From Candidatus Peribacteraceae bacterium (GTDB lineage: Bacteria; Patescibacteriota; Gracilibacteria; Peribacterales; Peribacteraceae), in NCBI GenBank assembly GCA_028703835.1, contig JAQVMB010000002.1, forward strand, positions 33,232-97,231: a DNA stretch of 64,000 nt, read 5' to 3'. Below, piece by piece: positions 5,301-34,620 of the stretch. Position 1 is the first letter of the stretch; the number at the start of each line of letters is the position of its first letter. Below the pieces are notes generated by a model that was not told where the DNA came from, did not search any database, and worked only from the letters and a program-made list of their open reading frames with translations. The translations under genes and the position numbers were made by a program.

Positions 5301-7007
5301 ATGTTTGATGCGCTGACAACGGAGGCACACAAAAGCCTTGAAAAGGCGTTCGGCCCCGTTCTTGAGGAAGTGCAATGGCAGTATCCGCGGGAGGCGGGAC
5401 GTGGGGATATCGCGACGAGCGCCGCTCTTTCCCTTGCGAAAAAACTGGGAAAGCAGCCGCGGGAGATCGCGCAGGTTCTTGCCGCGTCGCTCGCGTCCGT
5501 GCCGGATGTGGAACGGACGGAAGTGGCGGGGGCGGGGTACGTCAACGTGTGGTTGAAGCCGCAGGCGCTTCTCGCGGCGCTGGGGGCGAGCCGCAAGGCG
5601 CAGGCGACGAAAGCGAAGGGGCATGCGAAGGGGAAGCGGCCGGTCATCATCGACTACTCCGCGCCCAACATCGCGAAGCCGCTGGGCATCCATCACATCC
5701 TCAGCACGGTCATTGGCCAGTCGCTCGCCAACCTGTATCGCAGCGAGGGCATTCCGACGGTGGGTATCAACCATCTCGGGGATTGGGGGACGCAGTTCGG
5801 CAAGTTGGCCGTCGCCATGGAGAAATGGGGGGCGGGCAAGACGGTCGCTTCGCTCGGCATGGACGGGCTCCTTGCGCTGTACGTGCGTTTCCATGAGGAA
5901 GCGGAGAAGGATCCGTCGCTGGAGCAGGAGGCGCTCGCTTCCTTCCGGAAGCTGGAAGAAGGGGATGATGCCATGCGGACGTTTTGGAACGAGGTGGTGC
6001 AAGCGACGATGGCGTCGGTCCAGCGCATCTACGACCGTCTCCACGTTTCCTTCGATGCGGTGCAGGGGGAGAGTTTCTACGAAGACAAGATGGCGCCGGT
6101 CATCGCGGAGGGGAAGGAGAAGAACGTGTTCGTGCCCGGGGAAGAAGGCGCGCTCATCGTCGCGTTTCCGGAGGAAGAGCAATTGCCGCCGTACATGGTC
6201 GTGAAGAGCGACGGCGCGACGCTCTACGCCACCCGCGACCTCGCGACGATCCGCTATCGGGTCGATACGTGGCATCCCCAAGCCATTCTCTACGTCGTCG
6301 ATGTGGCGCAGCAGCTGCACTTCCGGCAGCTCTTCGCGACGGCGTCGCGGTTGGGTTGGGACGTGCCGCACCTGGAGCACGTCGTCTTCGGCCGGATGCG
6401 TTTCGCCGATGCGTCCATGAGCACCCGCAAGGGGAACATCCTCAAGCTGGAAGACGTCCTCGACGAAGCCGTCCGCCGCGCGAGGGAGGTCATCGCGGCG
6501 CACGGGGAGACCATCCAGACCGATGACGAGGCTTCGTTGGCCGAGATGATGGGCGTCGGTGCGCTGGTGTACGGGATCCTCAGCCAGAACAGGAAGATGG
6601 ACATCGTGTTCGACTGGGACAAGATGCTCAGTTTCGAGGGCAACAGCGCCCCGTACCTGCAGTACACCCATGCGCGGGCGCGGTCGGTGCTGCGGAAGGC
6701 GGCAGTGAAGAAAACACCTTTCCCCAAGGATGTATCCGCATTGCAACCGTCCGAACGCCTGTTGCTGAAGGACCTGCTGCTGTTCCCGGCGGCGGTGGAG
6801 GAGGCGAGGAACACGCACATGCCGCACAAGCTGGCGAATCATCTCTACCAGCTCTGCCAGGATTTCAACGCGTTCTACAACATCGAACCCATCCTCAAGG
6901 CCGAAGGCGACACCCGCGCTTTCCGTCTTGCACTTACCGCGGAGACCGCCGACGTCCTCCGGGCCGGCGCGGAATTGCTTACGATGCGGGTTCCCGATCG
7001 CATGTAA
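5301..7007 (+). CDS. argS: Arginyl-tRNA synthetase
   Basis: SAPNIAKPLGIHHILSTVIGQSLANLYRSEG (HIGH region), GVNHLGDWGTQFGK-like INHLGDWGTQFGKL, DASMSTRKGNILKLEDVL, C-terminal DALR-type region. Confidence 0.95.
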   Translation: MFDALTTEAHKSLEKAFGPVLEEVQWQYPREAGRGDIATSAALSLAKKLGKQPREIAQVLAASLASVPDVERTEVAGAGYVNVWLKPQALLAALGASRKAQATKAKGHAKGKRPVIIDYSAPNIAKPLGIHHILSTVIGQSLANLYRSEGIPTVGINHLGDWGTQFGKLAVAMEKWGAGKTVASLGMDGLLALYVRFHEEAEKDPSLEQEALASFRKLEEGDDAMRTFWNEVVQATMASVQRIYDRLHVSFDAVQGESFYEDKMAPVIAEGKEKNVFVPGEEGALIVAFPEEEQLPPYMVVKSDGATLYATRDLATIRYRVDTWHPQAILYVVDVAQQLHFRQLFATASRLGWDVPHLEHVVFGRMRFADASMSTRKGNILKLEDVLDEAVRRAREVIAAHGETIQTDDEASLAEMMGVGALVYGILSQNRKMDIVFDWDKMLSFEGNSAPYLQYTHARARSVLRKAAVKKTPFPKDVSALQPSERLLLKDLLLFPAAVEEARNTHMPHKLANHLYQLCQDFNAFYNIEPILKAEGDTRAFRLALTAETADVLRAGAELLTMRVPDRM

Positions 7008-33961: not shown

Positions 33962-34161
33962 GACAATGAGAACTTGAAAATGCAAAATGTGGGTGGTATT
34001 GCCTCACCCAAAGACCTTGCTCCATATTGACTAGGTTCTCCGCTCTCCGTAACCTTTACGGGCTCCGGTCATTTCATGCACGGGCGATTAGCTCCCGCTT
34101 TCGCCCTCCGGGCTACGGTGGGCAGGCAGGGGTTACTCCCTCATCCGATCATTCGTTTCAC

Positions 34162-34237
34162 GGGCGATTAGCTCAGGGGTTAGAGCGCGACACTGATAAT
34201 GTCGAGGTCGATGGTTCAAATCCATCATCGCCCACCA
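34162..34237 (+). tRNA. tRNA-Ile (GAT), CCA encoded
   Basis: GGGCGATTAGCTCAGGGGTTAGAGCGCGACACTGATAATGTCGAGGTCGATGGTTCAAATCCATCATCGCCCACCA; loop CTGATAA. Confidence 0.94.
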
Positions 34238-34437
34238 ACATTCGCTTTGCGAATGTGGGTGTATCGCTCGCTCGCTTCGCTCACGAGCTCTTTTTTCATT
34301 GGGAGGAGAACCTCCCAACCCCTCCCGTGGGAGTTGAAACTTGTGTTGGATATAACATTTGATCCCTTCCTCACCACTTGACATTGTATAACTATTTGAT
34401 TAAATACTCTTCCTCCCATTCCGTTGGAATGAGAGAT

Positions 34438-34554
34438 AGGGGTGTAACTCAGTGGTTAGAGTGCCGCCGTAAGGGACTGTTATCTGAGGTCCGGAACAAA
34501 GATAACGGTTGGTTGATAACCCGGAAGTCGAGGGTTCGAATCCCTCCATCCCTG
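34438..34554 (+). tRNA. tRNA-like gene with 44-nt insertion in the anticodon stem (apparent anticodon GAT after removal)
   Basis: 5' part AGGGGTGTAACTCAGTGGTTAGAGTGCCG (34438-34466) and 3' part GGTTGATAACCCGGAAGTCGAGGGTTCGAATCCCTCCATCCCTG (34511-34554) join into a perfect 73-nt cloverleaf; 34467-34510 is extra. Confidence 0.65.
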
Positions 34555-34620
34555 CTCGCCCCGTTCTCAAAACGGGGCTTGTTTAGTAATCGTAAACATC
34601 AGTTCCAAACCAATGGAAAT

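Follow-up and report, generated by a model that had tools for sequence, protein, structure and literature searches.

In a member of the Peribacteraceae (Patescibacteria), a 44-nt insert splits the anticodon stem of a tRNA-like gene, and genes split at the same place are found in many phages. The bacterial gene (34438–34554, plus strand) lies in the window, the whole stretch of 64,000 nucleotides that was analysed, which corresponds to contig 24:33232-97231 of a 98.5% complete draft genome of 1.34 Mb in 40 contigs. We lean, tentatively, towards a stand-alone, non-decoding tRNA mimic that retains the insert as an additional arm, and place this ahead of an intron and a pseudogene.

A tRNA body split in the anticodon stem

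The gene consists of two parts on the plus strand, delimited with an interrupted-tRNA finder and from the sequence. The 5' part (34438..34466) comprises the acceptor strand, the D arm and positions 26–29, ending in C28-G29; the 3' part (34511..34554) comprises positions 30–31, a TTGATAA loop with the GAU anticodon, positions 39–43, the variable loop, the T arm, the acceptor strand and G73 (34554), with no encoded CCA. Together they form an acceptor stem of seven pairs (34438-34444/34547-34553), a D arm of four (34447-34450/34459-34462) and a T arm of five around TTCGAAT (34530-34546), while the anticodon stem is divided among positions 27–29 (34464-34466), 30–31 (34511-34512) and 39–43 (34520-34524), the last two enclosing the loop (34513-34519). 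Since all arms are intact, as are the bases for tertiary contacts (G18-G19, U8-A14, G15-C48 and G26-A44), the body is not visibly decayed.

Removal of the insert (34467-34510) restores CCGGG-TTGATAA-CCCGG, a canonical arm with U33 and R37. An earlier sequence-only reading had placed the insertion between positions 29 and 30 and had described a cloverleaf with a GAT loop after excision; both descriptions were borne out element by element, the stem being broken after C28-G29. Given the tRNA body, some excision produced a canonical arm in 0.75% of shuffled middles, and restoration by chance is unlikely, though possible. Default ARAGORN and Rfam RF00005 both missed the gene, and ARAGORN with introns allowed reported a tRNA with the same ends and the intron placed differently (Val, AAC). 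Our purpose-written finder returned 34438–34554 as the sole interrupted tRNA in the window, and gave no match on either strand of 40 Markov shuffles of it.

The insert has a simple predicted layout, CC(GUAA)GG of 8 nt followed by an 11-bp hairpin. The first element, CCGUAAGG (34467..34474, plus strand), forms a 2-bp mini-hairpin with a GUAA loop in the constrained fold, or else an 8-nt lead; the second (34475..34510, plus strand) is predicted to pair GACUGUUAUCU with AGAUAACGGUU around a 14-nt loop. Folding with the tRNA body as a constraint gave −38.4 kcal/mol, compared with −38.9 when no constraint was set; the best constrained structure has a junction free of unpaired bases, in which 27–29 pair with 41–43, both insert hairpins are stacked, and 30–31 and the anticodon arm follow. 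Pair probabilities in the body-constrained ensemble are about 0.4 for 27–29 and about 0.8 for 30–31, and the folding energy of the whole RNA has a modest advantage over shuffles (z −1.1). According to these models the cloverleaf can accommodate the insert as an extra arm at a fully paired junction. A 4-bp CCGT/ACGG closing stem proposed from the sequence had no appreciable probability in the same ensemble, the 11-bp hairpin being stronger. The exact insert was absent from the genome and viral collections searched, and nothing beyond a 14-base match was found elsewhere in its own genome. Origin by tandem duplication of the anticodon arm was rejected, local similarity being no better than in shuffles (65%).

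Flanking signals point to separate expression. A promoter-like site (34378..34406, plus strand; TTGACA, 17 nt, TAAATA, or 16 nt, TTAAAT) has a perfect −35 and a weak −10, the latter rejected by a consensus scan. Downstream, a terminator scan located an intrinsic-terminator-like hairpin, GCCCCGTTCTCAAAACGGGGC, followed by TTGTTT (34558..34578, plus strand); the scan gave one such hairpin against 0.7 expected in shuffles, and its weight lies in its position, 4 nt past G73. With both features in place the RNA is organised like a separate transcription unit, and we infer that it is transcribed. The neighbourhood is ordinary, the downstream genes being those for a pentapeptide-repeat protein and a ribose-phosphate pyrophosphokinase-like protein. 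An ordinary tRNA-Ile(GAT) with A73 and CCA (34162..34237, plus strand), noted earlier as lying 200 bases upstream, was recovered by ARAGORN and Rfam and is separate from the split RNA.

In sequence, the joined gene does not resemble a tRNA-Ile. It combines a GAU anticodon with an Asp/Trp-like G73 body, and the closest matches of that body are tRNA-Asp (60/73 identities; 81% in another comparison), Gln and Trp, not Ile. Removal of the insert thus yields a GAU cloverleaf that lacks both A73 and an Ile-like body; position 73 is A in both tRNA-Ile genes examined in the genome, and CCA is encoded by 31 of its 32 examined tRNAs. The A1-U72/G73 acceptor had been called atypical for tRNA-Ile, which holds for G73 and fails for A1-U72, a pair that occurs in E. 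coli tRNA-Ile1.

Related designs in Patescibacteria and phages

Searches of the same genus or family found no copy of the split gene. The matches listed for 59 relatives were to the T arm alone, and a covariance search across 74 genomes from the family yielded no copy; its model, built from the window gene and eight real tRNAs given artificial random hairpins, served as a search probe only. Its matches were swamped by ordinary tRNAs, and absence in relatives rests mainly on a pattern search, covering 353 genomes, in which divergent arms would go undetected. In the stretches examined, relatives have a tRNA-Ile near the region but no such split gene, and no orthologue that would allow a covariation analysis was found.

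Other long tRNA-like genes emerged from the searches of the family (covariance, 74 genomes), class (pattern, 353) and phylum (pattern, 380), in genomes G091, G344, G055 (two genes), G600, G453 and G647. These genes, of about 107–131 nt, have intact bodies like the window gene, but their anticodon arm is replaced by one continuous long hairpin, for instance of 14 uninterrupted pairs in G344. No excision yields a canonical arm in five of the seven (G091, G344, the first G055 gene, G453 and G647), and several ambiguous excisions are possible in the second G055 gene and G600. The G091 gene has AGGGGTGTA and CGGTTGG in common with the window gene; both also lack CCA and are followed by a terminator-like hairpin.

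A body pattern of these two genes matched one viral contig, in which the gene is split after position 28 and excision restores a flawless CGAGG-CTGTTAA-CCTCG arm. A generic scan of IMG/VR yielded 79 long tRNA-like genes, and in 17 of them excision at 28/29 or 29/30 left a canonical arm; the shuffle control averaged 0.1 and never exceeded 1. Most phage inserts comprise a five-pair hairpin followed by ACAGCAA; they measure about 39–57 nt and interrupt the 5' side of the anticodon stem following position 28 or 29, the exon before them mostly ending in C-G. They occur in Synechococcus phages B23 and BUCT-ZZ01, in Aeromonas phage Ahp1_CNU-2021 and in many IMG/VR contigs. Anticodon-stem inserts of 39–57 nt with the hairpin and ACAGCAA were located in L206, L214, L229, L232, L258, L263, L267, L271, L285, L302, L308, L312, L337, L340, L354, L364, L412, L428 and L430, and likewise in genes at L562 1501-1610, L563 1512-1625 and L564 672-784 and 802-915. 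Annotators had labelled the gene tRNA-Undet in B23 and tRNA-Pseudo in Ahp1_CNU-2021, and had recorded nothing in BUCT-ZZ01, where nearly the same insert occupies two different tRNA genes. For two genes of isolated phages, the joined exons can be aligned over their whole length with phage tRNAs that have no interruption; one of these matches is a tRNA-Asn, as the GTT anticodon predicts. Several such genes can share one array (L340), and hairpin-ACAGCAA stretches also lie directly 3' of a tRNA in some arrays (L263, L391, L232 and L285).

The window gene shares with this family an insertion after position 28 or 29, the insert size, a hairpin and the disagreement between body and anticodon; unlike the family, it lacks the hairpin-ACAGCAA element and has a chromosomal setting, with no phage gene among the five neighbouring proteins scanned. 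A model of the ACAGCAA inserts recovers those of B23, BUCT-ZZ01 and Ahp1_CNU-2021. Run on eight positive-control loci, it gave 39–61 bits for the six best matches, of which five came from sequences outside model building; some members reached only 18–25 bits, and the window gene scored 1.0 bit. By sequence, the window gene is not a member. Matches to the same model in 338 genomes of the class had no tRNA context and look like chance. A second set of phage inserts, of 50–51 nt at 28/29 and without ACAGCAA (L204 4101-4223, L224 1067-1190, L241 147-270 and L320 3507-3629), mostly has an outer stem and a GTTAY end and has its site and length in common with the window insert; the site thus takes more than one sequence family. 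Because the insertion site is common to a large phage set, the window insert is not a private accident. A search of viral sequences for an AACGGTT pattern gave no new split tRNA, and a 38-nt match in a Xanthomonas phage was rejected as an ordinary tRNA.

The mismatch of anticodon and body that the window gene appears to show recurs in the phage set. With the anticodon masked, the amino acid of the nearest ordinary tRNA was that of the joined anticodon for 3 of 32 phage genes picked by a GCAA-type motif, compared with 39 of 60 ordinary tRNAs (p=2e-7), the test measuring similarity to ordinary tRNAs and not aminoacylation. C73 was present in 10/32 phage split genes versus 6/159 ordinary tRNAs (p=2e-5), and some phage genes place Ser and Leu anticodons on bodies with a short variable loop. 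Within the open-licence literature, in the part available to us, short phage tRNA introns appear for Lak megaphages only (PMC6784885), and an earlier description elsewhere is possible. The phage set of split tRNA genes is apparently widespread and undescribed.

Mimic, intron or relic

The sequence-only reading had offered a new intron type, a tolerated extra arm or a pseudogene. We agree with its argument from length against a group I intron and, like it, saw no canonical bulge-helix-bulge, but the joined product, with an Asp/Gln/Trp-like body, G73 and no CCA, does not resemble a tRNA-Ile. Group I introns also reside in bacterial tRNA genes but are ribozymes several times longer than the insert, which at just 44 nt has no group I catalytic core and no Rfam intron match, in agreement with the earlier exclusion by length. 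Archaeal non-canonical introns share the 29/30 position but require a bulge-helix-bulge and EndA. We saw no bulge-helix-bulge at the junctions by inspection or in predicted folds; EndA (PF01974) was undetected in 8/8 genomes searched and RtcB (PF01139) in 10/10, both counts including this genome at 98.5% completeness, whereas controls were detected, for EndA in archaea. Lak megaphages carry tRNAs with short enigmatic introns that are not assigned to a known class (PMC6784885). As far as that account was available to us, these resemble the window insert in being short and unclassed, but are found by tRNAscan in eukaryote mode, include one that holds a possible tRNA, and are described without a 29/30 site (PMC6784885).

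An intron would mean that the 44 nt are cut out at 29/30 and the exons joined to a GAU tRNA, by self-splicing or by an enzyme not yet known, and that the phage inserts may do likewise. The flawless restored arm, with its 0.75% chance expectation, is best explained in this way, and so counts against a mimic, as does the full-length alignment of joined phage exons with uninterrupted tRNAs. The 17 phage genes that behave alike against 0.1 expected, the near-identical inserts that one phage carries in two different tRNA genes, a pattern that a mobile intron would be expected to produce, and the short tRNA introns of Lak phages (PMC6784885) point the same way. We nevertheless consider an intron rather unlikely: the insert is far below the size of known ribozyme introns, the genome already has a tRNA-Ile(GAT), the anticodon conflicts with the body here as it does in most of the phage genes, and Ser and Leu anticodons stand on phage bodies with short variable loops. 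It is the missing detection of EndA and RtcB, with the body/anticodon disagreement, that places a mimic with a retained arm ahead of an intron. The other Patescibacteria tRNA-like genes with long non-anticodon arms, five of seven without a canonical-arm excision, also speak for the mimic, and a retained extra arm seems no weaker an option than an intron.

A former tRNA that lost its function through a hairpin insertion would account for the missing CCA and for the occurrence in one genome only, with no copy in the same genus or family by the searches used. Such a relic is improbable given the intact arms and tertiary-contact bases, the promoter-like site and terminator-like hairpin, the full pairing of the insert into a junction and the use of the same insertion site by many phages. 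Bacterial Y RNAs mimic tRNA, and the insert enlarges one tRNA arm; a Y-RNA-like molecule, with a tRNA-like module joined to a Ro-binding stem, is nonetheless very improbable, as the ends lie in the acceptor stem and not in a Ro stem, and no Rfam Y RNA matched even at E up to 10. Still harder to credit is an assembly artefact or a chance likeness to tRNA: the sequence does come from a single draft genome in 40 contigs, but there is no parent copy for a chimera to join and no interrupted match in shuffled windows.

For the tRNA mimic that we tentatively prefer, the RNA would be transcribed on its own and would not work as a tRNA-Ile. The complete tRNA fold of its body would allow recognition by RNase P and tRNA-recognising proteins, and the insert would be retained as a structured extra arm that follows C28-G29 on the 5' side of the anticodon stem. 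The resulting cloverleaf would display an anticodon loop mismatched to the identity of the body, and the extra arm would block use by the ribosome or add a binding site. Its likeliest role, we infer, would be that of a decoy binding tRNA-directed proteins. A phage origin is plausible by analogy, the same design being common in phages.

Implications and further tRNA arrangements

Bacteria and phages may, we suggest with some hesitation, contain short, site-specific inserts of a class so far undescribed, which lie on the 5' side of the tRNA anticodon stem and fall into several sequence families. The window gene would be a chromosomal Patescibacteria case of this class, made up of either new minimal tRNA introns or new tRNA-mimic RNAs with a part in conflicts over tRNA. 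Were the inserts spliced out, bacteria and phages would have a means of tRNA splicing that uses neither EndA nor RtcB; were they to stay in place, two-armed mimics of tRNA would be widespread and might be directed at defences that cut tRNA. In both cases, many phage tRNA-like genes that now carry an undetermined or pseudo label, as they do in B23 and Ahp1_CNU-2021, would need a new reading, and cultivable phages that carry split genes make the choice between intron and arm testable.

Other unusual tRNA arrangements were encountered. In L159 (G035:C105:5302-5400 and flanks), the anticodon arm of one tRNA contains, within a 12-bp hairpin, a complete second tRNA, a tRNA-Thr with CCA, which resembles the tRNA-in-intron reported for Lak phages. 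The genome has a tRNA-Ile with a TAT anticodon, unusual for bacteria (L032 1498-1574), and the 136-kb phage contig L204 has, besides its split tRNA, genes for a tRNA with a CTA anticodon and for a tmRNA (1220-1292 and 5605-6001). Many Patescibacteria carry a copy of a tRNA 5' part about 50–100 nt upstream of the intact tRNA, often followed by CCCGC or CCCCGTTAGAAATTT (L028, L058, G435:C18:50182, G375:C1:511563, G461:C46:11407 and G626:C5:25536); in the window, GGGCGATTAGCTC precedes the tRNA-Ile in this manner (34082-34094).
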